Shown piece after piece: positions 10,108-62,903 of a DNA stretch of 64,000 bases. Origin of the DNA: Haliotis asinina (Eukaryota; Mollusca; Gastropoda; Lepetellida; Haliotidae); contig NC_090290.1 in NCBI RefSeq assembly GCF_037392515.1, positions 35,675,253 through 35,739,252 of the forward strand. The letters are read 5' to 3'. The number at the start of each line of letters is the position of its first letter. The stretch's first letter is position 1. The position numbers and the translations under genes were made by a program. The notes below the pieces were generated by a model. That model made no database searches. It was not told the DNA's origin and saw only the letters and a list, made by a program, of their open reading frames with translations.

Positions 10108-13100
10108 CGATGTGGTGGAACTCTGCTCGACGCCGTCACTTTTTATGTATGGCTGACAGGCAACGCTTGATCCGTCTTCATGTAGGATCTGTGGGGAACA
10201 GATGAGTGTTGCTAGATTTACAGATGTTGGATTGACAAGAAGAGAGGCAATGGAGTACTGAGTGGTTGAGTGAGTTAAATTTTCGCAGCTTTCAGCAATA
10301 ATCCAGCAATATCACGGCGGGGGACAAAGAATTATTATGTACGCATGTGTTAAACAGAACTCGTGTTTTCGGTGTGTAGAGCGAACGCTTTAACTATTAG
10401 ATCCATTCCAGAGCAGCAATCTCAAGCCGAGTCCTTTGTTATATCTGATGTTCCTTATATTCATCCGAATATTACCTTCACTCCTCACATCGAGTCCTTA
10501 GCCTGAGATCGACTCCAATGCAGCACAGCTCACATCAGGCACTTACCCTGAGACCCACGCCTTTGCTATATCTCACACTCTTTATATTCATCAGCGTATT
10601 ACCTTCACACCTCACATCGAGTCGTTAGCCTGAGATCGACTCCAGAGTAGCATATCTCACACCGAGTCCTTACCCTGACCCCTTCTTCTGCTCCTTAAAT
10701 TCACTAGGCAGAGCTGAACATCTCACATCGAGCCATTACACTGAGATACACTCCAGAGCATCACGTCGAGTCCTTACCCTGAGGTCCGCACCTTTCTTAT
10801 ATCTCCTATTCCTTACATTCATCAGTCAGAGCATCACATCTCACATCGAGTCATTACCCTGAGATCCGCACCTTTCTTCTCACATCGAGTCCTTACACTG
10901 AGATCCGCACCTTTCTTCTCACATCGAGTCCTTACACTGAGATCCGCACATTTCTTATATCGCCTACTCCTCACATTCATCAGTCAGAGCATCACATCTC
11001 ACATCGAGTCCTTACACTGAGATACACTCCAGAGCATCACGTCGAGTCCTTACCCTGAGGTCCGCACCTTTCTTATATCTCCTATTCCTTACATTCATCA
11101 GTCAGAGCATCACATCTCACATCGAGTCCTTACACTGAGATCCGCACCTTTCTTCTCACATCGAGTCCTTACACTGAGATCCGCACATTTCTTATATCGC
11201 CTACTCCTCACATTCATCAGTCAGAGCATCACATCTCACATCGAGTCCTTACACTGAGATCCACACCTTTCTTCTCACATCGAGTCCTTACACTGAGATC
11301 CGCACCTTTCTTCTCACATCGAGTCCTTACACTGAGATCCGCACATTTCTTATATCGCCTACTCCTCACATTCATCAGTCAGAGCATCACATCTCACACC
11401 GAGTCCTTACACTGAGATCCGCACCTTTCTTCTCACATCGAGTACTTACCCTGAGATCCGCACCTTTCTTATGTCGCCTATTCCTTACATTCATCAGTCA
11501 GAGCATCACATCTCACACCGAGTCCTTACACTGAGATCCGCACCTTTCTTCTCACATCGAGTCCTTACCCTGAGATCCGCACCTTTCTTATATCGCCTAA
11601 TCCCTACATTCATCAGTCAGAGCATCACATCTCACATCGGGTCCTTACACTGAGATCTGCACCTTTCTTATATCGCCTACTAGCTATATTCATCAGTCAG
11701 AGCATCACATCTCACATCGAGTCCTTACCTTCATGTCTACTGCCTCCACTAGCGCCTCCTCTTTCTGGGTGAAGTAAGGAAGGTTGACAGAGACACGTGT
11801 GTGCGGCAAAAAACTGGGGCCAGCGTTCTTGATGACGTATTTCTGTCCGATGGTAACCTTGGTTTTGTCCAGTTCATCCATCCGTACCAGAATCTGGTCG
11901 GGATCCGACTTTCTGCAATGCATAAAACAGACTCCCACCCAAATGTCTACTGATATCAAATACATCACCACAAGTTAATAAAGTTACAAATATGAGTGAC
12001 TTGTCGGGGATATTTTTATCTTTATCAACGAGTGTTGATATGATTAATGTTAGTACACATGAGGGTGTGATTTTATTTTAGTTTTCAATGAGAAATGTAC
12101 CTCTCTCAACACTGTACTATCATTAAACTTGCAGTGCGGCGATGTGACAGCATTGTGACGTCATCAATTTCACGACGTCATAGCTGTGTCAGGTCGTTAT
12201 TGCACAAATCCACAGTCAAATCGATATCTCCTAGGGATGTCATATGATCTTACACCAGCGATATCTCATGTGGAACACAGTATTGAATTAAAAGATAAAC
12301 ATCATGACTTTTTTTTATTGTGTTGGTCAATTCCGGGTGTTATTGAGTATTTGAAGCCCGTGAATACATTTGGAACTGACGGCGTTTTCAACCAGTCAGA
12401 TTACAAAACACCGTGACTTTTGATTTACAATGATAAAGTCATATCTCATGCATCGATAAGTATTTCTGTTTGAGTGAATAAAATTGGTGATACAAGTCAA
12501 CACATATAAACTGTATTTTAAGGAAAACACTCTCAGTGGTGATTTCTTTTGGAGAAATAAATATGATTTTGTTTATATTTGTTTGTTTGTTTGTTGTTTA
12601 ACACCACACTGAACAATATCCCTCCGATCCAGTTAGTCGCCGATAAGCGTGTGGTGTTGAAGACCTATTCTAACCCGAATCCTTAAGTGTAGAAAAGCTA
12701 AGGTCGTTGAATACATATCGCCAAAACGTGATCCTTTTGGAAACAGAGTAGAGTATGTAATTACCCATTGATTCCTGTTTGAGCATCGATCCAGACGCGG
12801 GTAGTCAGACTGGCTTTGTTATTATCCGGTGTCGTCTCATTACTTCCGGTTTGCACTGAGACATTAAATTCTAGCGAGGACATATCAGTCTTAATATCAT
12901 CGGCCGTGAAGAAGACTTTAAAGGTAAACGTCTCCTTGAAATATACCGGAAGAAGTACGTTGCATTTCAACCGATATAGGAACACTCCGATTTCCTCAGA
13001 TTCTCCGTCGCAGACGACAGGTTGTTGTGAGGATGACTCTGTCGTCTGCATTGACACAGTTCCAGACCAGGTGACAAAAACTACTGTTGCGAATGCCGTT

Positions 13101-16100
13101 TCCATGTCGTTCCTGACAGCCACGTTCAGCACCAAGTCTTTTGTCGCGTTGATAACGACATCCTTATCTAAAGGCTCCCTTATAAGGGCCCCATCCTCAT
13201 TATTTATGCTCGCTTGAAGGTCAAGGATGAGGTCAGACCAACACTGGTTCTCTTGACCACATTCAAGTTGAAAAGCCACCTGAAGTCACGGAGAAGTTAT
13301 TAGTCACTTTAAGTTTGAAGCATTGAATCATGAAAGCCTCAGCATGCAAACTTTCACAAAGATAGTCAAGGAAAAATGTCAGGTAAAATTAAATATAGGA
13401 AAGATTTCATTGTTATCGAGTTGAATCATCAAGAAGAATACCAACAGGGAGCTATCAGTCTACATATTGCGTAGATACTTAACATATAATAGCCACATAA
13501 TTAATTTGGTTCACATCCGCTGTTTTTGTGAGGTTTGAACTATCTGCAAAACAGTATCTTATCGAATCACGGCAGTGAAGAAGCTGGTTGATAGGTAAAC
13601 ATTTCAAGTAAGTCTGAGTGTTTTGTTGGTATACATTCAGAGACGAATGTACACTTTAACGAAATTAGGACTGAGGCTATTTCTTCATCATATGTTATAT
13701 TCTGACACATCGTGATATAGACAAACGCTGTTTTGAACAGATAACCTATTTTCGTTTGGAAATAGTGTTTTGTTTGCATCTTGTTTAACGCCGCAGTCGG
13801 CATTATTGCGAGTTACCATTTCTTTCTTCTTGAAAAGCTATTGTTTTCTCATGATTGATTGTGCTATTAAAGAAACAGAGGACACTATTCTGGAAATGTA
13901 GTAGCAAGCGATACAAGTCCCTGTGGTAGTTTGTAAGAAGAGCTTTGAGAGAACAACGTTTAACCACTCACGTCTTTGATCAGTTTGTGGGGTCGTGACT
14001 GATTGGTGACCGGCTGGATGTCGGAGTTGGGATCCGCCGGTTGTGGGAGTTGGTACATGGCCTCCACACGGACCACAGTGAACGGATCCTTATCTACGCG
14101 ATCCTACAAAGATCCATAGAGAAACATTGCAAAACGTACGAAGTGAAAGAATTGTGTTCACTCGCTGCTGCCAAGGTGTCATGTGAACAACAATATATAG
14201 AAATGGCGTATCTTACATTTACACTGATGGCTTGAAACTCCCGGCATGCTCCTGTTTGGCTGTTAGCAGTTATTACATCAGATACGAAATCGACGTAGCC
14301 CTGTGTGGAGTTAATGAGTATACGCTTCTGTCCATTTCCTTTGTACGTATCCACAGAAAGTATGTAGTCAAACACTGAAACGTAGGCGTTGTATAGGGTT
14401 ACAGCTTGGGGGTTGTGTGACATATACGCATGTTGTATAGGGTTACAGCTTGGGGGTTGTGTGACATGCACACATGTTGTATAGGGTTACAGCTTGGGGG
14501 TTGTGTGACATGTACACATGTTGTATAGGGTTACAGCTTGGGGGTTGTGTGACATGCACACATGTTGTATAGGGTTACAGCTTGGGGGTTGTGTGACATG
14601 TACACATGTTGTATAGGGTTACAGCTTGGGGGTTGTGTGACATGTACACATGTTGTATAGGGTTACAGCTTGGGGGTTGTGTGACATGTACACATGTTGT
14701 ATAGGGTTACAGCTTGGGGGTTGTGTGACATGTACACATGTTGTATAGGTTACAGCTTGGGGGTTGTGTGACATATACACGTTGTATAGCATTACAGCTT
14801 GGGGTTGTATAAACTATATACATGTTTTATAGCCTTTGAATGTCATTTAGAAGTGTAAATACATAAGAATGAAGATTTTATGGATATCAACTTCTTTATG
14901 AGAGAACACAACGTTTCGGAGTTAATGCTTACTCCTTCATCAGGTGATTGAGAAAGGGATACAGAGGTGTATTTATATGTACAGGTAAAACAATAACAAA
15001 GTAACAAGTGGAACGAGTTAACGAAAGCTAGTATAAACAAGCACTGATAGGAAGCCGATAGTTAAGATAACAATGATGGAAGCCAACGGTAATGCATTAC
15101 AGTTGATTGGATATGTTTACATAACATGATTGGGGATAAGGATGGAAGCCAATGGTGATACATTACGCATGATAGGATGATGTACATAACACACGATAGG
15201 GGGTGAGCATGTATACATGAGGGTTGGTGATGTACAAACACAAGTATGTACTCGGGTAGATAGGCTATACATGAATTACATAGATAGAATGTACACAGGT
15301 AGATGAGATTAATTTATCAATAAGTCCCAGGCACTTGGTAGGTACACTCCTTGGTCGCGGTTGATGGCTGGTTTCTGTCTCCGGATCTCGATGGCCTCTT
15401 GCAGTTTCCTTTGGCGCCAGTTGTTGTTGTTGGTAGATAGTATCCTAGTGTCCTCCCATCCAATTGATACGCATGTTGTATCCAAACCTCGCCCGCAGCT
15501 GCTTTGACACCTCCTACTTCACATTCAATGGTAAGATATACAAGCAGATCCACGGTCTCCCCATGGGCTCACCTCTTTCTCCTCTCATTACAGAAATCTT
15601 CATGACCTCCTTCGAGGAAGCAGCCCTCTCCACAACTCCGTTCCAGCCCCTCTGTTGGTACCGCAAAGTCGACGACACCTTCACCACCATCGCCTATGAC
15701 AACGACCCCAATGAGCTCCTCAACCACCTCAACGACCAACATCCAAGAATCAAGTTCACCATGGAGACTGAGACCAACCAACACCTGCCCTTCCTTGATG
15801 TATCCCTCCACACCACAGACGATGGACTTAGAACCTCAGTATACCGCAAGCCGACGCACACCGACCAGTACATCCACTACAACTCCTGCCACCACCCTCA
15901 GATCAAGCAAGCTATCATCGCCACCCTTACCAGACGTGCCAAAGCCCTCTGCCACCCCGATGCCCTAAACAATGAACTGGACCACCTCAGAAAGACATTC
16001 ACCACACTCAACGGGTACCCTCCCCAGCTCGTCACAGCCACCATCAACAAGACCCTTAAGGACCGAGAACCCCGCCCCAAACCTGCTCCATCACCCATCA

Positions 16101-19100
16101 GAGTAACCATACCCTACTTTGGCCCCATCAGTCATCAAATATCACGCCTCATCAAGACCAAAGCCAGCATCGATGTCACCTTCTCCAGTGGCAAGACCAT
16201 CAAGACCTACCTAAAAGCCAACGGTAAAGGACCCAGCTGTGAACACCCTAACCCGAGAGGATGCATCTACCAGATCCCTTGCAACTGTGGCGACCTATAC
16301 ATTGGAGAAACGCTGAGACCAATCAACACCAGAATGAAGGAACATCAGACCTCAGTCAGGAAACTCGACCAGAAATCGGCCATCTCTGAACATATTCTCA
16401 AGAACCCTGAACACTCAATTGGATGGGAGGACACTAGGATACTATCTACCAACAACAACAACTGGCGCCAAAGGAAACTGCAAGAGGCCATCGAGATCCG
16501 GAGACAGAAACCAGCCATCAACCGCGACCAAGGAGTGTACCTACCAAGTGCCTGGGACTTATTGATAAATTAATCTCATCTACCTGTGTACATTCTATCT
16601 ATGTAATTCATGTATAGCCTATCTACCCGAGTACATACTTGTGTTTGTACATCACCAACCCTCATGTATACATGCTCACCCCCTATCGTGTGTTATGTAC
16701 ATCATCCTATCATGCGTAATGTATCACCATTGGCTTCCATCCTTATCCCCAATCATGTTATGTAAACATATCCAATCAACTGTAATGCATTACCGTTGGC
16801 TTCCATCATTGTTATCTTAACTATCGGCTTCCTATCAGTGCTTGTTTATACTAGCTTTCGTTAACTCGTTCCACTTGTTACTTTGTTATTGTTTTACCTG
16901 TACATATAAATACACCTCTGTATCCCTTTCTCAATCACCTGATGAAGGAGTAAGCATTAACTCCGAAACGTTGTGTTCTCTCATAAAGAAGTTGATATCC
17001 ATAAAATCTTCATTCTTATGTTTTATAGCGTTACAGCATGAGGGGTATGTGATACATACACATGTCGTATAGCGTTACAGCATAGGGGGTTCTGTGACAC
17101 ATAAATGTGTCGTTTAGTATTGCAGGGGTTTGTGTAACACATATACCTGTTGTATATTGTTACAGCATATGGGTTGTGTGACACCTATACCTCTTGTGTA
17201 TTGTTACAGCATGGGTGTTGTGTGACCCATATACCTGCTTTTAGAGCATGGGGAGTTGTGTGACACATGTTCATGTTGCATATTGTTACAGCATGGGGTG
17301 TTGTGTGACACATCTACATATTGTGTATTGTTACAGCATGGGGAGTTGTGTGACACATACCTGTTTTTGAAGCATGGGGAGTTGTGTGACGTATGTACAT
17401 GTTACATAGTGTTACAGCATGGGGAGTTGTGTGACACATCTACATATTGTGTATTGTTACAGCATGTGGAGTTGTGTGACACATATACCTGTTGTGTGTT
17501 TTTGCAGCATGGGGAATTATGTGACACATAGACCTGCTGTGTATTGCTTCACCATGCACATTCAGTCAAAGACAGTAACGTCGAAATTTGAGGCACTTTA
17601 TAGATTATTCGACGTATCTATACTGACACAGTATGGGACAAAGGTTGAAGAAGGGGTACGCAGTGAATAAGGTTTCACTCTGAAACAACCGAATGTTCGA
17701 CACGTCACAACTGGACTGTAGCTCGAATATTTAAAATAGATACAGAAATTCATAAAAGCAAAAGCAACAACGTTAACAATGATGCTGAGTCTTACTGAGG
17801 CTTGGAGGAAGGCTGACTCCGGTGTAGTGGAAACAGATCCGCAACAAGAAACATCTGTCAGTGTTAGTCCCCGCTGGACAATTGGACCTGTCCTTGATGA
17901 CAAGCTGGGGTTCAGTCGTGACGTTGGCGTGAAGGTCAACTATGGGCCTCGTTCTGAGAATGACAGCAGAATCCGAGAGGTATGCCCCGACAGCGATATC
18001 TGCAAAAAAGTTGCTGGTCACTTATGTCGGTTTGAACACTGTTTCAGTTTAATAGTCGTAGAATTCTTTCATGAAGGACAGAATCCTAGAGTAATCGTGA
18101 TCGTACATCCGTTGATATGAACGAAAATGGTGAAACATGAGGAAGCCAGAACAAGGATAAAAACAGATGGAGATCAAAGGATGAGAACAGATGGGGATTA
18201 AGGGATCAAAACAGGAGGATATCAAAAGATCAAAGGAAAAACCGGTGGAAATTGAAGGATTATCAGAATAGGTGGGGGTCAAAGGATAAAAAAGACGAAG
18301 ATCAAAGAACCAAAACAGGCGGAAATAAATGGGGGGATCAAATGATCAAAACAGACATATCTAAAAAAATCAAACAGGTGAAAATCAAACGTTTAAAGCA
18401 GCTGCGATCAAAGGATGACAACAGGAAGTGATGAAGCGATCAGTCGGATGTGTAGTATCAGGACAGAGGATCAAAGGATCAAAACAGATGATATGAAAGG
18501 ACCAAAGCAGAGGGAAATCAGACAACCAACACAGGCGAAAACCAAAGGACCAAAGCAGGTAGATCAAAGGATAAAAATAGGTGGTTATCCAAGGATAAAA
18601 CAGATCAAAGATCAAAGCAGATGAGGTCAACAGATCAAAACAGGTGGGATCAAAGGGTGAAAACAGGCGAGAATGAAAAGATCAAAGGAGGTGGAGATCA
18701 AAAGATCAAACTAAGTGCCAAGCAAAGAATCAAAACTAGCGGGGAACCAAGGATGAAACAGGCAGACATCAAAGGATGAAACAGGCAGACATCAAAGGAT
18801 GAAAACAGGCAGACATGGAAGGGTCATCCAGTAGCATAATGTATTGACTTTTTCAGGCAACAAACCTACAAAAATACCTACAAAATATGAAGATTCTACA
18901 CGGATTCTACACTTAGGAGATCAGAGAGTGTGTCTGTTGAGTGGTGGGTCGTACCGGGGTAGCCATTGCTGTCCACGTCGGCAGGTTTGGAAATGCTCCA
19001 GCCAAAAGACGTCACTGTCTCCGTGTCGTTAATGTCGCGGCCTCCTATTCTCTGCATCGGTTCGGCGCTCAACCCTCCATCCCCTCCGTGGTAGATATAT

Positions 19101-22100
19101 ACCGCCCCGCGTCCTTCATCCTCGTATGGAGCTCCAACAGCAACATCTGGAAGATGATAACGACATATGTCACATATCTTCTGTCACCTCTGCTGACGTC
19201 TCCAACACCCAAATTGACTATCACGAACGTATTTATACTACCATCAATTTTCATGTTCCAACAGAAACTTGTCATTATGCTATGTCATTCTCCAAGTCAT
19301 CTGTATGACAGTCACTGTCTCCAAGTCTGCTGCTGAGAGTTCCAAACATTACTGAGTGCGGCGTAAAACTAAACACACCCTTGATGAGTCGATGGCTACC
19401 ACGGTAATCACAAGCTCACCTTAGTAACCATCACTGTTGATGAGTCGATGACTACCACGGTAATCACAAGGTCACCTTAGTAACCATCACCGTTGATGAG
19501 TCGATGACTACCACGGTAATCACAAGCTCACCTTAGTAACCATCACCGTTGATGAGTCGATGACTACCACGGTAATCACAAGCTCACCTTAGTAACCATC
19601 ACCGTTGATGAGTCGATGACTACAACGGTAATCACAAGCTCACCTTAGTAACCATCACCGTTGATGAGTCGATGACTACCACGGTAATCACAAGCTCACC
19701 TTAGTAACCATCACCGTTGATGAGTCGATGACTACCACGGTAATCACAAGCTCACCTTAGTAACCATCACCGTTGATGAGTCGATGACTACCACGGTAAT
19801 CACAAGGTCACCTTAGTAACCATCACTGCTGATGAGTCGATGACTACCACGGTAATCACAAGCTCACCTTAGTAACCATCACTGTTGATGAGTCGATGAC
19901 TACCACGGTAATCACAAGCTCACCTTAGTAACCATCACTGTTGATGAGTCGATGACTACCACGGTAATCACAAGCTCACCTTAGTAACCATCACTGTTGA
20001 TGAGTCGATGGCTACCACGGTAATCACAAGCTCACCTTAGTAACCATCACTGTTGATGAGTCGATGGCTACCACGGTGATCACAAGCTCACCTTAGTAAC
20101 CATCACCGTTGATGAGTCGATGACTACCACGGTAATCACAAGCTCACCTTAGTAACCATCACCGTTGATGAGTCGATGGCTACCACGGTAATCACAAGCT
20201 CACCTTAGTAACCATCACTGTTGATGAGTCGATGACTACCAAGGTAATCCCAAGCTAACCTTAGTAACCATCACTGTTGATGAGTCGATGACTACCACGG
20301 TAATCACAAGCTCACCTTAGTAACCATCACTGTTGATGAGTCGATGGCTACCACGGTAATCACAAGCTCACCTTAGTAACCATCACTGTTGATGAGTCGA
20401 TGGCTACCACGGTAATCACAAGCTCACCTTAGTAACCATCACCGTTGATGAGTCGATGGCTACCACGGTAATCACAAGCTCACCTTAGTAACCATCACTG
20501 TTGATGAGTCGATGACTACCACGGTAATCACAAGCTCACCTTAGTAACCATCACCGTTGATGAGTCGATGACTACCACGGTAATCACAAGCTCACCTTAG
20601 TAACCATCACTGTTGATGAGTCGATGACTACCACGGTAATCACAAGCTCACCTTAGTAACCATCACTGTTGATGAGTCGATGACTACCACGGTAATCACA
20701 AGCTCACCTTAGTAACCATCACCGTTGATGAGTCGATGACTACCACGGTAATCACAAGCTCACCTTAGTAACCATCACCGTTGATGAGTCGATGACTACC
20801 ACGGTAATCACAAGCTCACCTTAGTAACCATCACTGTTGATGAGTCGATGACTACCACGGTAATCACAAGCTCACCTTAGTAACCATCACCGTTGATGAG
20901 TCGATGACTACCACGGTAATCACAAGCTCACCTTAGTAACCATCACCGTTGATGAGTCGATGACTACCACGGTAATCACAAGCTCACCTTAGTAACCATC
21001 ACTGTTGATGAGTCGATGACTACCACGGTAATCACAAGCTCACCTTAGTAACCATCACCGTTGATGAGTCGATGACTACCACGGTAATCACAAGCTCACC
21101 TTAGTAACCATCACTGTTGATGAGTCGATGACTACCACGGTAATCCCTAGCTAACCTTAGTAACCATCACTGTTGATGAGTCGATGACTACCACGGTAAT
21201 CACAAGCTCACCTTAGTAACCATCACCGTTGATGAGTCGATGACTACCACGGTAATCACAAGCTCACCTTAGTAACCATCACTGTTGATGAGTCGATGAC
21301 TACCACGGTAATCCCAAGCTAACCTTAGTAACCATCACTGTTGATGAGTCGATGACTACCACGGTAATCCCAAGCTAACCTTAGTAACCATCACTGTTGA
21401 TGAGTCGATGGCTACCACGGTAATCCCAAGCTCACCTTAGTAACCATCACTGTTGATGAGTCGATGGCTACCACGGTAATCACAAGCTCACCTTAGTAAC
21501 CATCACTGTTGATGAGTCGATGACTACCACGGTAATCACAAGCTCACCTTAGTAACCATCACCGTTGATGAGTCGATGACTACCACGGTAATCACAAGGT
21601 CACCTTAGTAACCATCACTGTTGATGAGTCGATGACTACCACGGTAATCCCAAGCTCACCTTAGTAACCATCACTGTTGATGAGTCGATGACTACCACGG
21701 TAATCACAAGCTCACCTTAGTAACCATCACTGTTGATGAGTCGATGACTACCACGTTAATCACAAGCTCACCTTAGTAACCATCACCGTTGATGAGTCGA
21801 TGACTACCACGGTAATCACAAGCTCACCTTAAAAACCATCACTGTTGATGAGTCGATGGCTACCACGGTAATCACAAGCTCACCTTAGTAACCATCACTG
21901 TTGATGAGTCGATGGCTACCACGGTAATCACAAGCTCACCTTAGTAACCATCACTGTTGATGAGTCGATGACTACCACGGTAATCACAAGCTAACCTTAG
22001 TAACCATCACCGTTGATGAGTCGATGACTACCACGGTAATCACAAGCTCACCTTACTAACCATCACCGTTGATGAGTCGATGACTACCACGGTAATCACA

Positions 22101-25100
22101 AGCTAACCTTAGTAACCATCACCGTTGATGAGTCGATGACTACCACGGTAATCACAAGCTCACCTTAGTAACCATCACTGTTGATGAGTCGATGACTACC
22201 ACGGTAATCACAAGCTCACCTTAGTAACCATCACCGTTGATGAGTCGATGACTACCACGGTAATCACAAGCTCACCTTAGTAACCATCACCGTTGATGAG
22301 TCGATGACTACCACGGTAATCACAAGCTCACCTTAGTAACCATCACTGTTGATGAGTCGATGACTACCACGGTAATCACAAGCTCACCTTAGTAACCATC
22401 ACTGTTGATGAGTCGATGACTACCACGGTAATCACAAGCTCACCTTAGTAACCATCACTGTTGATGAGTCGATGACTACCACGTTAATCACAAGCTCACC
22501 TTAGTAACCATCACCGTTGATGAGTCGATGACTACCACGGTAATCACAAGCTCACCTTAAAAACCATCACTGTTGATGAGTCGATGGCTACCACGGTAAT
22601 CACAAGCTCACCTTAGTAACCATCACTGTTGATGAGTCGATGGCTACCACGGTAATCACAAGCTCACCTTAGTAACCATCACTGTTGATGAGTCGATGAC
22701 TACCACGGTAATCACAAGCTAACCTTAGTAACCATCACCGTTGATGAGTCGATGACTACCACGGTAATCACAAGCTCACCTTACTAACCATCACCGTTGA
22801 TGAGTCGATGACTACCACGGTAATCACAAGCTAACCTTAGTAACCATCACCGTTGATGAGTCGATGACTACCACGGTAATCACAAGCTCACCTTAGTAAC
22901 CATCACTGTTGATGAGTCGATGACTACCACGGTAATCACAAGCTCACCTTAGTAACCATCACCGTTGATGAGTCGATGACTACCACGGTAATCACAAGCT
23001 CACCTTAGTAACCATCACCGTTGATGAGTCGATGACTACCACGGTAATCACAAGCTCACCTTAGTAACCATCACTGTTGATGAGTCGATGACTACCACGG
23101 TAATCACAAGCTCACCTTAAAAACCATCACTGTTGATGAGTCGATGACTACCACGGTAATCACAAGCTCACCTTAGTAACCATCACCGTTGATGAGTCGA
23201 TGACTACCACGGTAATCACAAGCTCACCTTAGTAACCATCACTGTTGATGAGTCGATGACTACCACGGTAATCCCAAGCTAACCTTAGTAACCATCACTG
23301 TTGATGAGTCGATGACTACCACGGTAATCACAAGCTCACCTTAGTAACCATCACTGTTGATGAGTCGATGACTACCACGGTAATCACAAGCTCACCTTAG
23401 TAACCATCACTGTTGATGAGTCGATGACTACCACGGTAATCACAAGCTCACCTTAGTAACCATCACTGTTGATGAGTCGATGGCTACCACGGTAATCACA
23501 AGCTCACCTTAGTAACCATCACTGTTGATGAGTCGATGGCTACCACGGTAATCACAAGCTCACCTTAGTAACCATCACTGTTGATGAGTCGATGGCTACC
23601 ACGGTAATCACAAGCTCACCTTAGTAACCATCACTGTTGATGAGTCGATGACTACCACGGTAATCACAAGCTCACCTTAGTAACCATCACCGTTGATGAG
23701 TCGATGACTACCACGGTAATCACAAGCTCACCTTAGTAACCATCACCGTTGATGAGTCGATGACTACCACGGTAATCACAAGCTCACCTTAGTAACCATC
23801 ACTGTTGATGAGTCGATGACTACCACGGTAATCACAAGCTCACCTTAGTAACCATCACCGTTGATGAGTCGATGACTACCACGGTAATCACAAGCTCACC
23901 TTAGTAACCATCACCGTTGATGAGTCGATGACTACCACGGTAATCACAAGCTCACCTTAGTAACCATCACTGTTGATGAGTCGATGACTACCACGGTAAT
24001 CACAAGCTCACCTTAGTAACCATCACCGTTGATGAGTCGATGACTACCACGGTAATCACAAGCTCACCTTAGTAACCATCACCGTTGATGAGTCGATGAC
24101 TACCACGGTAATCACAAGCTCACCTTAGTAACCATCACTGTTGATGAGTCGATGACTACCACGGTAATCACAAGCTCACCTTAGTAACCATCACTGTTGA
24201 TGAGTCGATGACTACCACGGTAATCACAAGCTCACCTTAGTAACCATCACCGTTGATGAGTCGATGACTACCACGGTAATCACAAGCTCACCTTAGTAAC
24301 CATCACTGTTGATGAGTCGATGACTACCACGGTAATCACAAGCTCACCTTAGTAACCATCACCGTTGATGAGTCGATGACTACCACGGTAATCACAAGCT
24401 CACCTTAGTAACCATCACTGTTGATGAGTCGATGACTACCACGGTAATCACAAGCTCACCTTAGTAACCATCACCGTTGATGAGTCGATGACTACCACGG
24501 TAATCACAAGCTCACCTTAGTAACCATCACCGTTGATGAGTCGATGACTACCACGGTAATCCCAAGATCACCTTAGTAACCATCACTGTTGATGAGTCGA
24601 TGACTACCACGGTAATCACAAGCTCACCTTAGTAACCATCACTGTTGATGAGTCGATGACTACCACGGTAATCCCAAGCTCACCTGCATAACCATCACCG
24701 TTGATGTCTCCAAGGTTACTGATGGAAGTTCCAAATCTGGCTCCGTGTTCATTGTTGCCCTTGAGAACCGAGCTCCGTGTCAATACCCGCTGTGAAATGC
24801 AAAAACGGATTACGGCCGCTGAGAAAATGATGGTCTGTGTTAAGTCAAACGTTTCTCTCAACGGTACAGATACATGTTCTTGAATTCGTCTTAAAGTGGA
24901 ATTACTTTCTTGTTTTGTTTTGTTTTTTTTCTGCAGAGAACAAAACAAGCGAAAACAACAGTATCAAAACAGGTGGAATCAAAGGATCAAACAAGCAGAC
25001 AGCAAAGGATCCCGCTGTGAAATGAATAAACGGACAAAAGGCCCTGAGAAAATATATACGTAAACACATCAGCTCCAAACTGGGCTGAAATTGGGCTGCT

Positions 25101-27304
25101 TTAGGAAATAAGCTAAGGTACACTCCACTCGCTCTTTTCCGTTAGCTCCAAGAAGACACGTCTCTGCCCCGATGACAATTATGTGCCAAACACGACAAAT
25201 CAATGAGAACGCACGTGATGATTGCGGTGCTGTGAATGAAATATCCCGAGTACTTGACTCGTTTTATAGCATTTAGATATAGTTTAGAAAATCATAAAAA
25301 TTATTTATCGTCTTATTGAAAGTAACAAGAACGTAGCTAACATAATTGTGTTATGGACGGTGGGAGATTCAAATATATGCACGTGCATTTTGTTTACATT
25401 TCCAGCTTTGTTTTTTTCTGGGGCGATTTGCGGTCTTGGAGATTCTACGCGCGCTTCAGACATATTTAGTTAACATTATGATAAATAGCCATGAGTTGCA
25501 AATCAAAATATTCTTCATATACCAAATCACCTCTGGGGTCTTTCATTTTCGTCAACCTATTCATTATAAATTCCAGGTGGAGTTTGGCAGCAAGGCTACA
25601 TGCAAGTTCATGACGCCAAGCATACTAATTCTCCAGTTAGAGATACACGTGAAAGCGTTTTTGTACCTGTATTTACTCTTATTACAGGTCCCGTGGAATA
25701 CCGGGGTAGAAGAGGCATTTAGCAACCCATGCTTACCATAAAAGACGGCTCTGCTTGTCGTAAGAGGCGACTAACGGAATCGGGTGGTCAGGCTCGCTGA
25801 CTTACTTTTACGAAACACTCAGCAATATTCCAGCTATATGGCGGCGGTCTGTAAATAATCGAGTGTGGACCAGACAATCCAGTGACCAACAACATGAGCA
25901 TCGATCTGCACAATTCGGGAACCAATGACATGTGTCAACCAAGTCAGCGATCCTGACCACCCGATTCCGTTAGTCGCCCCCTTACGACAAGCGTAGTCGC
26001 CTTTTATGGCAAGCATGCGTTGCTGAAGGCCTATTCTACCCTGGGACCTTCACGGGTCCTGTAACTTTAGAAGCAGTTTCATGCTTGGACAGCTGCAACG
26101 TCAGAAGTAGTTTCCATCAACTGTAACGACACAGACACTGCCTCGCTCTCTTCACGATTTGAACTTGAAGTTAATGCATACACCTATCGGTTAGTGGTAT
26201 TTACAACCTTATGTCTGGACACGTAGAAGGCGACTTAAGGTTTATTTCTTGCCTGGCGATTGTCGTTGAGGAGGTTCAGGTAGACAAACACCCGCCCTTC
26301 ATCCATGTAGTTTTTCTTGTTATGGTCACTGCCGTCGTTGTTGTCGGTGAAGAAAGGAGCTCCGACTAGCAGGTCGTCGAAGTCATCTCCATTAACGTCT
26401 ACCGTACACAGGGAAGCACCAAAGTAAGCCCTGGCCTAAAACCATAATTGTTCATAATTGTCATAATTGTCTTCTGTTCGTTATGACACGAGGCGGCGGG
26501 GTAGCCTGGTGGTTAAAGCGTTCGCTCGTCACGCCAAAGACCCGGGTTCAATTCCCACATAGGTACGAAGTGGGAAGCCCATTTCTGGTGCCCCCCGCTT
26601 TGATATTGCTGGGATAGTGCCAAAAGCGGCGTAAAAGAGAAATTGAACACTTTTTACACACCACTTACAAGACCATCATAACAATAGCAAGGAAATAGCA
26701 GACAGAGTTACATTGTACCCATAGTGGGACTCGAACTCGGACCTTTGGTCATGTGTGTGGGAGTAATTGAATAATGGGTTGAGTTTACCCGTGTCTTTTA
26801 CGTGAGGTGCCAACGTCTCAACGATACCGTACCGGCACAAAAGTAAACAAGGCTTCCTGGCGTTTTGGAGACATTCGGCTCCTTTCACAATGTACTAATG
26901 TGATGTAAGTCACTTGTGTAACAGTCACTTGTGTAACAGTCACTAGGGTTAAAGAATGGGAGTTAACGTTAACCTTAGTAAAGGTTACTTCGTAAAAGGC
27001 GCCTCGGCAGAAGGTTGATTTTAAGACGCTTCTAAGAATTGCGTATCAATGTATCCTATAACGTTCTCTATGTTTGTGAGACGCTCCTTGACGAATCGTA
27101 TCGTTTTGTAAATAGTTAGCATTGTCAGAAAATTACGTATCATCGTCTAGCGTAAAGCCTTAGCTATTTACGCGAAAATCTGGGTGGATGCTATATGCGA
27201 TACCCATTTCTTGGGTCAGCCGCCGTGATATTGCTAAAAGCGGGTTAAACTCTGCAACAGTCTTCTTCCGTTTGTCGCTGATGTGTAGGACTGCAAAGTT
27301 CACG

Positions 27305-37166: not shown

Positions 37167-40100
37167 TGTGTCTCTGTGTGTCTCTGTGTCTCAGTGTCTC
37201 TGTGGTTTGGGTTTAAACATATCTATTTCTGCTACAAGGTACAGAACTGAAGAGTAGCCTGGGGTTATGTTATGTATCGTTTTATGGAAAAGAGTCAGTT
37301 TCTGGGTGCGCCTTTCTACTAGAGGCAAGAGATTAGTTTCTGAATATAATTTATTATGACTTGTTCCCCTTGCTGCCCCACATATTGTTCTCAATGCATA
37401 AAGCTGCATTTTTTCATTAATTATCTCGGACTAGTCTCTGCGGAACGTCTTTTACTAAACAGTATGGTTTCTGTTTTGGATGGATTGAATATCACTTGCC
37501 ACCGTACTGCCCACTGAGAAATCCTTTCTAAATCTTTATTGAGGATCTTAGCATCTTCAGTAGGATCTTCTAGTATGACATAAAGCGAAGTGTCACCAGC
37601 AAAGAGTCTTATATGGCAATCTATATTTTCAGCAAGGTCGTTTATATAGACAAGAAATAATAATGGCCCAAGCACAGATCCTTGGGGGACACAGATTACA
37701 ATTACAGTTGTAATTTATGTAGACCTCCCTTATGCCACACTTTATCAAAGGCCTTATTTCACAAATGACTGCCCTTACTTCTTTACCTTTATCCACAGCA
37801 CTTGGAATTAAGTTCTGCAACTCTAATAGTTGATAAGTTGTTGAATCATAAGGAATAAAACCTGACTGTAATTTATTTGTGATACCATTGTCTTTAAAAA
37901 ATCTTAAGAAAAACATTTGTGAACACATTTCTCATAAGCTTTAGATGAACAGCACGTGAGAGACCGTCAGGGCTCGATGCTTTGCGAGTATCTATAGCTA
38001 GGGAAGGGAGTATATCTTCTACATATCTCTGGGTTAATGTAATATTCACTAAACTGTTAGACGATTTACTACATCTTAATCTTCAACCACGGACTGAGCA
38101 ACGGAAAATCATTAAAAATATTTGCCATTGGCGTAGGATCATCATAAATTATATTATCATGTGAGATAGGAGGAAATGATGTTGATTTCTCTTTTTTCTT
38201 TAGATAGTGTTTAATTAACTGCCACCACTTCTTATAATTACACTGTTCATTTATCATACTATCTAATTTTAAGAAATAATTTTCTTTCGCTTTTCTGATT
38301 TCTGACACTATCTTATTCCTTGTGGTTCTGAAAACTTGCCAGTCCGAGGGTAAATATTTGCAAGTCTGTGTTGCGTTTTTCGGAATTCATCCATAACTTG
38401 TCTTCAATTCTAACCATAATGATCTTGTTTGTAATAAACGTATCACATATACACTTACAAGGATATCCGTAAAGTTATCAACAAGCGAATCCAATTCATC
38501 AATGTCTAAAATGTGTCCCAATTAAAGTCGCGAAGATATGAAATTAGGCTTTCAATGTCTAACTGGGAATAATTACATATCTTTCTTTTAAAGGTAAGAT
38601 TTCCAGGTTTGGGATGGTTAATGCTAAGAAAGACTGGACAGCGGTCACTATACACCGGATCAAGGACTTCTGATGAAGTTACACTTACAAAATGTGAGAC
38701 TAAACTAAAAGTTCATCTAAACGCTGCTTTTTATTGCTAAGATAGTCGATTTGAAAGTCTCTCTACGAACACCCGCCACCCTCCACGATTCAGTCTATCT
38801 GGTCTGAAAGGTTTATGAAATCCAGATATCATAACATCATTGTCTTGGATATAAGGGTGGAACCATGTTCCTGTTATGCACATGATGTCATAATCTTTAC
38901 ATTCAGCATTGAAAATTCAGCATTGAAAATTCAGCATTGATAATGTCGATTTTATCCCTTATGTTTATATGGACTACATTCAAATTAGATATTAGATATT
39001 TGTTATTTGATACAGTGGGTCCAGGGTTTGGATGGACATCCCCACAACAAATCAATAACATAAGAAACAACCGCAAACTCCTGAGACCCAGGGTAAAGAA
39101 ATAATCATATGAGATGATATGTATTAAGATCAATCTTGCCCTTTGAAGAACTGCGAGTTTGTACCTTTCCTATCATGATCCAACAGTCATATAGTGTTGA
39201 ATCACATCACAAACACAATACTAATGCGTGTGTATGAGTGTGTGTGTATGTGTGTGTGTGTGTGTGTGTGTATGTGTGTGTGTATGTATGTGTGTGTGAG
39301 AGAGAGATAGTGAGAGGGGGTGAGAGTGAGAAAGACAAAGGGAGATTGAGCTAGAGACGGCAAGAGAGAGAGAAAGTGAGTGGTAGGGTGAATGAGAGAC
39401 AGTGAGAGTGTTAGAGTGAGAAAGAGGGAGAGAGAGAGAGACTGAGAGACCGAGAGAGAGAGAGAGAGACCAAGAGAGACCGAGAGTGAGAGAGAGACAA
39501 AGGGAGAGTGAGCTAGAGAGGGCAAGAGAGAGAGAAAGTGGGCGGGAGGTTGAATGAGAGACAGTGAGAGAGAGAGAGAGACTGAGAGAGACCGAGAGAG
39601 AGAGGGTGAGAAGGGGGGGGGGGAGGACCCGGATACAACGACTGAGGCTGAACGGTTGGTGTGTAGGATGACATTTCGCGAACTACTGGCTGTGACAGCA
39701 CTATTGCGTTAATGTTATATATAGCTAAGCGTTGATGGGGGATGGTTGGTCCTTGCCACAGAGCTAAAATAAGCTTCAGAGAGCCCATTGTTTCCCAGAG
39801 TAGGGTGTCTGTTTACATGGGACACTTGACTGGTCACACAATCAAAGGCATATTTTAATGTGGTTCACGTTGCCACCAAAGTCTGAACATGAGTCGGTCT
39901 GAGAAAAAAAAGTTTCAACGAAACAAATTAATAAAGACAAGATTATATGAATAATGATCTTGATGCACATGTATTGCAATTCCTATTACAATTAACACAT
40001 TAAATAATAAACGTGATCTATGACGAGGTACTTTTAGGTTCGAGTCTGCGATGTTGGAGTGAAAAAACAGTTTCGGGGAGGGGTGGGGTGGGTGCGGAGT

Positions 40101-48855: not shown

Positions 48856-51800
48856 CTGCAATAATGACGCACTGTTAAGAAACCTTCACGACAAGCAATG
48901 CACACGACCCAACAGAAGTTTGTTTGCTATTTGTCACCGAACTGAGCAACATTCCAGCTATATAGTGGTGTCTGTAAATTATGGAGTGTTGCCCAGGCAA
49001 TTCAGTGATCAACAGCATGAGCACTGATCTAAGCAATAGGAATTCTATGATAGTGTCTACCGGTGTGCGAGTATTCTTCACCCAATGCTTGTGTCGCCAC
49101 ATATGACAAGGGTGTGAGTGCGTGCGTGCGTGCCTGAAATGTCTATCATTATATCTCCTTATAAATCCTGCCTTTTGCAAATACATTATAAACGTTATCT
49201 GATAGTTCAATGTAATTGGTTCTCTTGCCTGGTGCTGTCTAGCACGATATCAACACAGTCCGGCACGGCAATGGAATGTTTACCGTAGGGCAATAGAATT
49301 GTCGAGTATAACAATGCCAACCTCTCAACAAAGTAACAGTGAATGTGTATGTTTCATTGTTGTCACTTGCCTTTCGACTATGTACATGTAATAACTGCTG
49401 ATAATACAACCACATATTTTTACTCGAAACCGCTTACAGCATGACAAGGGAGACTACTCACGTTGATTATGAGGGGTTTCCACGTATAGCATTTCAGGTT
49501 TCGAAGACGAGGGTGCATCGCCCATAGAGGGAAGGTCCTCACTTCGCAGCGACAGAAACGTTCAACCTGGACAGGAGAAAGATTGAGTGAATATTGTTTT
49601 AAGTCTCATATAGCAATGTCCTTGCAGCATCGCGTCGCGGAACATCTGAAATTAACTTCCAAACATTCTACAGAACACATACCGTTTCTCCTTCACTGGA
49701 CAGTTTTGTTGAACAGCTGTCCATGGCGCTCAGAAACGACAAGGTGCATGAAATGTCGACAAATACATTACATGTGGTTGAATAATTTCGTCTCAGCACC
49801 AACTACGGTTACCTGTAAGGGAGGCAACTCCATTCACAACTCACCTCACTCCTTTCTTCGGTTGTAAGTCCAAGGTCATAGTAGACAAAACTGTAATTGG
49901 TAAGCAGAGGAAATACTCTTTCATGGAGGTTCTTGATCATTGCTTGCGATTCGAGAAAATGGTTCGAAGAGGCAGCGGTCACAAACACGACCTTCTTGGC
50001 TGTGTAATTGGGCTTCAGAAGTCTGGTCACTTCCGACAGTGTGTCTCTGTCAAGGTGCACCATAGAATTTAGAACGCTGGACAGACTTTCTTTGGGGTCA
50101 GATATTACACTCCCTATGCAGTTGGTGTCCACACACGGGGTTGCTGCAAAACAATGACACGAAAAAATATACAGCGATCACTTCTGACTTTGAATGGTTT
50201 TTAAACATCACAGTATAATTTATCAGTTAACATGATTTGATATTCGTAATGAACTATTTCGGATAATGTTATGTTTGAAGCAAATTGACTCCTGGTAAAT
50301 TACCAGGAAGGGTGTCAGTAAGCCATTGCTCTTACTTGTCTTTTGTGTAAATCGAATTTGTATTTACCTTTTGATTTTTATGCCATTTCAGCAGAATTGT
50401 ATCTAAAGCTATTGACTCCATGCCTAAAGTGGATCATTTTCTGTTTATACTCTGAATGATGCTTTGTGTTTGCGCCCAAAAAATATTGAGGTGGCATGGA
50501 AAATAGCGTATCTGAATGCCTTTGAGGAATCTAAAATCAATCTTTGGCGACATGGGCGAACACCTTGTCAACTGGGCTCACTCCCCATACCGGGAGTTTG
50601 ACGTGACGATGCATTTACATTCACATTGTGTTGCTAGGTCTGACTTCACACTCACAAATGAGTCATCCTCATCAGTGCCATGGCCACCATCAACCTCATC
50701 AACTAACTACGTCATCATCGACAACGTCAACTACAGCAGCAGAGTAAAACTTACATGTTCCTGACACATTGTTGCAGGTCCCAGTCGGGGGGTTCGCCTT
50801 CCAAAAACCGCCGTCTTTCATAGCTGATGACATAAGCTCGAAATTACACACGTACTGGGGAGACAGGTGCTGGGGATGTTATACAGGTATTTTCTCATAA
50901 TGGAATTTAGTGTCCAGGCTTGTACATGTAGTTTCAAACTTTAAATGTAGCAGACATCTAATATTTTGAGAAACCAAAGGTACCATTAGATGATTTCGAA
51001 TTAAGTAATTTGCTTACTTTACTTGAATGGAAGTTACTAAACACCGAATGAGACGACAATATGTGTCTCTTGCCTTGTCGTTCAGGAAATCTCCCTCTCC
51101 ACTTTCTCCATCCCGCCCGTTCTCTTCTCGCACGCGCACACACACGCATACACACACACTCTCTCTCTCCATTTCTCTTTCTCTCTCTCTCTTTCTCTCT
51201 CTTTTTCCAGGTCTCTTACTTTGGATTCTAGCGGAGTAGTCGATGAACAGGTCCTCAAACCGCACTTCTGGTTGAAAAAAGCAGATATTGTTTGAAATCA
51301 GTTATTGCATACGGCTGTGGAAATGTCATGGTTAACCTGCATAGGTTGAAAGGGTATGTCCAGTCCATTTACATGATCAATTGACTTGTCACTGCGTGTG
51401 TTTGTGGGGAAGTAATGAGAGAGAACATCAATTTCACCTTTTTGTATTTGCTAGTGATCCTGAAACAAATATTTATCACAAAGGAACAGTGTACAGAAGT
51501 GACTGATTCTATTTCCAATATGTTACCTTGTGTTTTTACCTTAGGAACAAGACACTGGATCTATCAACATTTCATAAATGTTTCTTTTGTATTAAATAGA
51601 ATATATTCAGTGTTGATGTCTCTTATGTAAGACACAATATACTGAAATGAATATCCCTTTAACGAGAAACACTCCCTGAACTGACACTATGATACTCATA
51701 ATCGTAATAGATTTTGAATACATTGAGTTGTCTTTGATTGTCTAATGATCGCACTGAACATTACACTCAAATCTTTTAGGACGTTTTACCGTGTTTGCCC

Positions 51801-61660: not shown

Positions 61661-62277
61661 GACAGTTTATTCCCAAGACGGCAACTCGTAAAATCATAGT
61701 TAGTTAGTGATGCCTGTAAGGATCTTCGCTGTGGTTTAAGTTGAAGAACAAATTTCAAAGATGTTTCTTGAGATTGTAAGCTTCCTTGATCTGCATTAAA
61801 AAGTAATAAATACACTGTTCCGATACTTTTTCTCATTTGTTTTACATTTTGAATTGGGGAGGTGTGATAGATTTACAACCACGTTATCAAGAAAGTGTAG
61901 CATTAGAAATACTAACATCATTGTTTAAATAGTGCTCAGCTTGAAAACTGAAATGGTTTAATCCATGTATATAACACAGAAAACAACTTGTTGATTGTGA
62001 TGTCACAGACCAAACTCAATGGCGATTATATTGACGCCTATGTGCTAATCCTTCGCTTTTCAGAGAAGTGATCGTCTGCATGTGGGCTGTACCTCCTTCT
62101 CGCCAAACAGATGTTGGGTTCTTCTTGCGAAGTGAGACGAAGGCATGGAGCGGTCCCCTTTAAGGAGGAAAAAGCCTCGATTCAGGACTAACATGTATGT
62201 ACTCCCTAATACTGAGAGCTGGAGTTGAATGGACCTGTAGCTGTGCCCATCTCCGACCATGTACATATATGCATATA

Positions 62278-62903
62278 CTGTTTTGTATGTGGAGTATGTG
62301 CCCCAGGTGTATTGCATATCTGTTTTGTGTGTGGAGTATGTGCCCCAGGTGTATTGCATATCTGTTTTGTGTGTGGAGTATGTGCCCCAGGTGTATTGCA
62401 TATCTGTTTTGTGTGTGGAGTATGTGCCCCAGGTGTATTGCATATCTGTTTTGTGTGTGGAGTATGTGCCCCAGGTGTATTGCATATCTGTTTTGTGTGT
62501 GGAGTATGTGCCCCAGGTGTATTGCATATCTGTTTTGTGTGTGGAGTATGTGCCCCAGGTGTATTGCATATCTGTTTTATGTGTGGAGTATGTGCCCCAG
62601 GTGTATTGCATATCTGTTTTGTGTGTGGAGTATGTGCCCCAGCTGTATTGCATATCTGTTTTGTGTGTGGAGTATGTGCCCCAGCTGTATTGCATATCTG
62701 TTTTGTGTGTGGAGTATGTGCCCCAGGTGTATTGCATATCTGTTTTATGTGTGGAGTATGTGCCCCAGCTGTATTGCATATCTGTTTTGTGTGTGGAGTA
62801 TGTGCCCCAGCTGTATTGCATATCTGTTTTGTGTGTGGAGTATGTGCCCCAGGTGTATTGCATATCTGTTTTATGTGTGGAGTATGTGCCCCAGGTGTAT
62901 TGC
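62278..62903. repeat. 42-bp minisatellite, about 15 copies
   Basis: Units CTGTTTTGTGTGTGGAGTAT, GTGCCCCAGGTGTATTGCAT, AT. Starts at 62278 and 62866 differ by exactly 14 x 42. Variants are GTGTG/ATGTG and CCAGG/CCAGC. The unit is a multiple of three without stops in several frames, which produces four long spurious ORFs. Confidence 0.97.

Follow-up and report, generated by a model that had tools for sequence, protein, structure and literature searches.

In the window analysed here, 64,000 nucleotides (nt) of the forward strand of the Haliotis asinina contig NC_090290.1, a probable integrin alpha gene (gene A) lies on the minus strand, and its intron 10 is largely occupied by a 56-bp minisatellite built from the end of the preceding exon, its splice donor and the first bases of the intron. 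We hold it highly probable that this array is an exon-intron-boundary minisatellite of the 'mirage' type, which arose by duplication of the junction, was amplified, was partially transferred from gene A to its paralog C and is hidden by splicing. 'Mirage' denotes here a kind of structure and not a homologous family with the arrays of that name from amphioxus. Most likely, the array has no useful role. All coordinates are positions in the window unless a contig is given, gene A and its array being read on the minus strand, and exon numbers serve as labels only, gene A having no end-to-end annotation.

The assignment of gene A follows from 210 amino acids of four exon pieces, which match integrin alpha-4 structures (E 4e-45); among named proteins the nearest relative comes from the limpet Patella caerulea, with 42% identity across 51% of the query sequence. 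The translation of exon '10' ends with ...GDINGDGYA and the junction reads TATGCAG/GTGAGC, the slash marking the exon-intron border. For the array (Table 1) Tandem Repeats Finder (TRF) gave a period of 56, 95.1 copies, 97% matches and 0% indels. On its minus strand, the stretch 19100-24800 contains the anchor GATGGTT 95 times, with each of the 94 spacings exactly 56; the true exon-intron junction is thus copy 0, followed by 94 copies within the intron. Each unit combines the last 23 nt of exon '10' with 33 nt of intron, in register over the junction. The intronic copies have a mean pairwise identity of 97.3% and fall into 19 distinct unit types, and a 12-unit block of the array recurs 13 units away. 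GT is conserved in 94/94 copies and the longer donor motif AAGGTGAGC in 81/94, and at the place where exon '10' reads TATGCAG, 89 of the 94 copies carry TACTAAG. The first-pass annotation of this DNA, which had reported a ~5.3-kb minisatellite of ~95 copies with fixed period, a unit made of exon end, donor and intron start, and the change of TATGCAG to TACTAAG, is thus borne out in these respects. Its ~95 near-identical donors are indeed donor-like, yet the wording slightly overstates the AAGGTGAGC count, and the end assigned to the feature, 24789, is in fact the start of exon '10', the array itself ending at 24706.

Table 1 Features of gene A and its surroundings in the window (slash, exon-intron border).
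Feature	Position	Strand	Basis or remark
Exon 1 of second integrin-alpha paralog	1244-1582; also C11:35596000-35676000	minus	patchy exon identity among the three tandem paralogs
Second donor-anchored array, ~40/80/119-bp units; starts at exon '15' donor AAG/GTAAGGACTCG and repeats that donor	10692-11728	minus	also in B and C
Exon '15', matched stretch SDPDQILVRM...EAVDMK; homology begins farther upstream	11729-11908	minus	homology
44-bp array, ends ~13 nt before plausible acceptor TTTCAG of weakly matched exon '13'	14388-14808	minus	TRF, homology
Exon '11', frame resumes DVAVGAPYEDE	18955-19146	minus	homology, translation
Intron 10 of gene A, 5537 nt, phase 1, mostly array	19147-24683	minus	donor and acceptor positions
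Putative degenerate older copy of exon-10 end through donor position, CAG/ATGA-CTTGG	19293-19346	minus	alignment borders; 3 nt overlap with dispersed fragment
Dispersed-element fragment	19344-19378	minus	adjoins distal array end, beside CATCAA direct repeat
56-bp tandem array	19381-24706	minus	true junction plus 94 intronic copies
First in-frame stop (TGA) on read-through from exon 10 into array	24616-24618	minus	translation
True splice donor CAG/GTGAGC, first intron base 24683	24678-24686	minus	sequence reading
Exon '10' of gene A, 106 nt, last 23 nt form 5' part of repeat unit	24684-24789	minus	homology, translation

That an unrelated intronic minisatellite merely resembles the exon by chance could be considered, arrays being common here (58 merged arrays with a period of at least 15 in 143 kb), but its probability is practically negligible: the exon shares the 23 nt in register over the exact junction and onward into the same intron bases, and this alignment refutes a chance likeness. 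Furthermore, a genome-wide search (1.14 Gb, up to 3 mismatches) with 29 nt of the unit, namely its intron part and CATCAA, gave 97 matches, of which 95 lie in A and two in C and none elsewhere, repeat counts in this search being lower bounds; the same search with the reversed 29-nt stretch gave 0 matches. An assembly artefact, by which the array would have a wrong copy number or not exist at all, is a concern insofar as long near-identical arrays are prone to collapse or inflate. We regard it as very unlikely, given the 19 unit types, the internal 12-unit block repeat, and the recurrence of two units in C, more than 70 kb from the array in A; the 159 contigs for 1.14 Gb moreover suggest a long-read assembly. 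The two outcomes that the first-pass annotation had named as refuting, an exon that shares the unit only by chance and an array due to the assembly, have thus not come about as far as the exon match and the two units of C can tell. A scan of 18000-26000 yielded no Rfam family reaching its gathering score. The idea that the 56-bp unit is part of a dispersed element was rejected, the element touching the distal array end only and the searched unit stretch having been found only in A and C. A match at C7:35758997 was likewise set aside, as it contains the dispersed element and no unit.

As to the origin of the array, the first extra copy may have been produced by one slippage or microhomology-mediated tandem duplication over the exon-intron junction. 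CATCAA stands at either end of the founder unit; this 6-bp direct repeat has one copy in the exon and one in the intron, which is the pattern that such an event would be expected to leave. Three adjacent bases, TGC, would have been altered to CTA before amplification; from the presence of TACTAAG in nearly every copy this change is most likely older than the amplification. Unequal exchange or slippage would subsequently have raised the copy number to 94. Provided that splicing uses the exon-proximal donor, all copies are merely extra intron and the mRNA is unchanged, and a duplication over the donor would consequently be nearly invisible to the mRNA and could drift up in frequency and grow, by which the array would persist.

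Further evidence comes from the comparison of three integrin-alpha paralogs, which stand in tandem on one contig within ~140 kb: A in the window, B and C. At the same intron A holds 94 intronic unit copies, B none and C two, and the intron lengths derived from donor and acceptor positions are 5537 nt, 431 nt and 543 nt, respectively. The C intron equals the B intron plus exactly 112 bp, that is, two units identical to the first two of A, which are placed before C's own donor TATGCAG/GTGAGTCTG. Sequence identity of A and C is complete from 102 nt before the first donor to 107 nt after it; B has the same 102 nt, and beyond the 107 nt shared with A the sequence of C is B-like again. Among the matches listed, no A-C intron match of at least 200 bp was present other than the intron-15 array and dispersed repeats.

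A similar patchiness is found in the exons. Between A and B third positions differ in 0/86 codons of exons 10 and 12 compared with 95/356 in exons 9, 11, 14 and 15 (Fisher 9e-11; 8e-5 for exon 10 alone), exon 1 being excluded from this test with a third-position identity of 93% for A-B and 100% for A-C. B and C show 1-9 mismatches per ~100-nt window in the 18 windows upstream of -200, and 0-4, most of them 0, from -200 to +2500. The seven exon pieces compared are free of stops in A, B and C and, when concatenated, give non-synonymous (dN) and synonymous (dS) divergences of 0.069 and 0.324 for A-B. We read the patchy identity of the paralogs as repeated gene conversion among A, B and C, and probably one conversion tract carried the first two units of A into C.

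The sharing between A and C could, however, also be ancestral: the ancestor of B and C would have possessed units, which B lost by recombination between the similar exon-end copies. Crossing over between copies 0 and 2 of C would in fact yield the junction sequence of B, and B also has the 102 nt of exon 10 found in A. We consider this reading unlikely, since the identity of A and C over 209 nt has no counterpart in their other introns beyond the array and dispersed repeats just mentioned; moreover, C's own intron is devoid of the unit's intron half, by which the unit would have arisen in an A-type intron, and the patchy third-position identity favors recent conversion.

With respect to splicing, predicted U1 pairing amounts to -11.3 kcal/mol for the real donor and to -9.6 kcal/mol for the decoy present in 81/94 copies, two weaker variants being predicted at -5.6 and -6.6 kcal/mol. 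The first donor would be preferred because U1 is predicted to pair with it more strongly and because the exon lies behind it; use of a later donor leads to a premature stop. Translation of the predicted products shows that use of decoy 1 causes a frameshift with a stop in exon 11 and that decoys 2, 3 and 4 all run into the TGA of copy 1; transcripts from decoys beyond 4 must contain this TGA as well. The first-pass annotation had taken TACTAA for the in-frame stop and raised the possibility of truncated isoforms ending there, neither of which agrees with these translations: since 56 is no multiple of 3, the first stop encountered is not TACTAA but the TGA within the intronic portion of copy 1.

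Such unproductive products, together with the retention of GT throughout and of AAGGTGAGC with its predicted U1 pairing in most copies, would also be compatible with a functional array, in which ~94 decoys either bind U1 or compete with the real donor and thereby tune the integrin output by unproductive splicing. The donor positions are, however, as variable as the rest of the unit: 2 of the 13 variable unit positions lie in the donor 9-mer where 2.1 are expected (P for 2 or fewer 0.65), a test of low power with so few variable positions. Furthermore, B has no array and C no more than two units, and any young array would show high identity. Consequently, we consider such a function quite improbable. 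The decoy donors look neutral, this weak test supporting neither a maintained decoy function nor selection that disarms the copies. The splicing-regulatory array proposed in the first-pass annotation is thus unsupported, and of the homogenisation it proposed, internal exchange is corroborated by the recurrent 12-unit block, whereas the purifying component finds no support in the same weak test. The first 348 nt are predicted to fold with -151.3 kcal/mol (z -8.3 against shuffles, which destroy the repetition). Masking of the decoys by RNA structure was rejected as the cause of donor choice, the real donor not being consistently more open than the decoys.

Intron 10 may hold traces of earlier events too. 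It could be a long-lived graveyard of junction duplications, in which an older copy has degenerated and the 56-bp array is the latest one, a reading that is compatible with the explanation favored here, goes one claim beyond it, and for which we see an even chance. When the tail of intron 10 in A was aligned to the exon-10 junction, 0/2000 shuffles were as good, and against the exon alone 2/2000 (0 and 1 of 1000 in other runs); the intron start of B and C compared with the exon end gave 1 and 3 of 1000 for B and 0 and 6 of 1000 for C. For comparison, the lowest value for 10 control introns against their own exons was 39/300 shuffles. On the other hand, the match of B is weaker under a third scoring (29/2000), the presumed relics of the A tail and the B/C start match each other only at 31/2000, and the segments were chosen after the resemblance had been noticed, intron 10 being the only intron so closely studied.

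Arrays at exon-intron junctions are not restricted to intron 10. At 80% identity the 24-nt donor region of exon '15' recurs downstream of the exon in 15 copies in A, 2 in B and 8 in C, and not upstream. Downstream of exon '11' in B and C, an array comes to within 1 bp of the donor, and no downstream copy of this donor region was found at 80% identity; the intron-11 array hence abuts the donor without repeating it. From the 44-bp array (Table 1), arrays may press against acceptors as well. An array edge within 25 bp was observed for 7/25 donors in contrast to 0.55/25 at random places, a count which includes paralogs repeatedly and lacks the donors of unfound exons. Collapsed to intron positions, 3/10 have an edge within 25 bp (P 0.001) and 2/10 within 2 bp (P 2e-4). 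Preferential birth at donors is not proven by these figures, because selection against arrays in exons would likewise align array edges with exon ends. Two further integrin-like loci have their nearest downstream arrays beginning 350 and 951 nt past the end of the match, the distance being taken from the match end and not from the donor.

A more far-reaching proposal would be that exon-intron junctions are preferred birthplaces of minisatellites in this lineage, with recurrent donor-spanning duplications being hidden by splicing, growing to dozens of copies, spreading by conversion and displacing the donor as in C. We regard it as tentative and rather doubtful, and it is weakened by the intron-11 array, which abuts its donor without a repeat of it. 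If true, introns would grow longer as they take in exon ends, and a single intron could preserve such events in layers.

Several points weigh against the explanation we favor for the intron-10 array or against its generality. The use of the first donor of exon 10 is something we infer: open exon pieces and a dN well below dS make the protein appear constrained, and this constraint requires the first donor. The predicted openness of that donor ranks 84 and 88 of 95 under two settings and 21 of 95 under a third. The neutrality test rests on its 13 variable positions only, and the same junction as from a transfer would result if a C-like ancestor of B had lost its units, for which reason the A-to-C direction is only inferred. 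The present distal end of the array need not equal the original founder junction, a dispersed-element fragment abutting it there. Mirage copies, as has been noted, could serve as cryptic splice sites (PMC3087553), and human tandem repeats at exon-intron boundaries, which differ between paralogs, are reported to be able to alter splicing (PMC2812944). Finally, among 30 myosin-exon loci (of 125 matches) none had an array starting within 100 nt of the match end, this survey being weak as a donor motif was located in 11 of the 30 loci and these belong mostly to one paralog cluster.

Some additional features were recorded along the way. A large cluster of myosin-head matches with many apparent tandem paralogs is located at C5:73.57-73.88 Mb. 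The donor after exon '9' of A at 26252 (minus strand) reads CAG/GCAAGA and possibly belongs to a GC-AG intron, while B and C read GAG/GTTTGG at this donor, these exon ends having been read by eye. A reverse transcriptase fragment at 37421-37714 (minus strand; RVT_1, E 1e-8), which we take to have the look of a non-LTR (long terminal repeat) element, lies between exon '1' and the later integrin exons. Another reverse transcriptase open reading frame at 15313-16820 (374 amino acids) has an RVT_1 match under the curated cut-off and flanks that are repeated in inverted orientation; it presumably resembles a Penelope-like element. A 42-bp array of 15 copies at 62270-62903 is traversed by long open frames on both strands because its period is a multiple of 3, and an open reading frame at 49809-50177 (minus strand) matches DUF1647 just above the cut-off (E 9e-6).

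In amphioxus, 'mirages' are minisatellite-like tandem duplications of exon-intron boundaries, which show length instability and are reported not to interfere with regular splicing; they were described for Adh3, TnC, the globins BflGb6 and BflGb9, and PGBD5 (PMC3087553, PMC3902484). As in amphioxus, the repeat unit in gene A spans the exon-intron boundary and carries AG/GT-type splice signals, and the first repeats of PGBD5 abut the 5' splice site as those of gene A do. In contrast, gene A has 94 copies as compared with 2-7 in the amphioxus globin and PGBD5 cases, the host is a gastropod mollusc with this array on the donor side, and the paralogs display no-copy and two-copy states with a probable transfer by gene conversion. 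In human segmental duplications minisatellite units at exon-intron boundaries also differ between recent paralogs and alter the intron structure; the variable repeats there average 30-bp units in four copies and may stay in the exon (PMC2812944), whereas the copies of gene A are expected to be spliced out with the intron. The model of Rogers, in which an intron is gained when an AGGT segment is duplicated in tandem (PMC4974935), has in common with our case that splicing absorbs a tandem duplication across splice signals; here, no new intron is formed, and the one that grows is an existing intron, whose position A, B and C share. A length-variable intronic minisatellite with a 27-bp unit has been reported for an abalone gene (PMC6905558). 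Among literature titles and the beginnings of abstracts, with limited coverage of subscription papers, no mirage-type array in a mollusc was found.

We file the array of gene A as a very large member of an already known kind, the mirage minisatellites, and its presence suggests that such arrays are apparently not confined to amphioxus. The birth, the amplification and the probable paralog-to-paralog spread of a splice-boundary minisatellite are visible here in one place, with the unduplicated B and the two-unit C as natural controls. This raises the testable question of how the spliceosome chooses the first among ~95 nearly equal donors and whether a duplication that spans a donor is free of cost.

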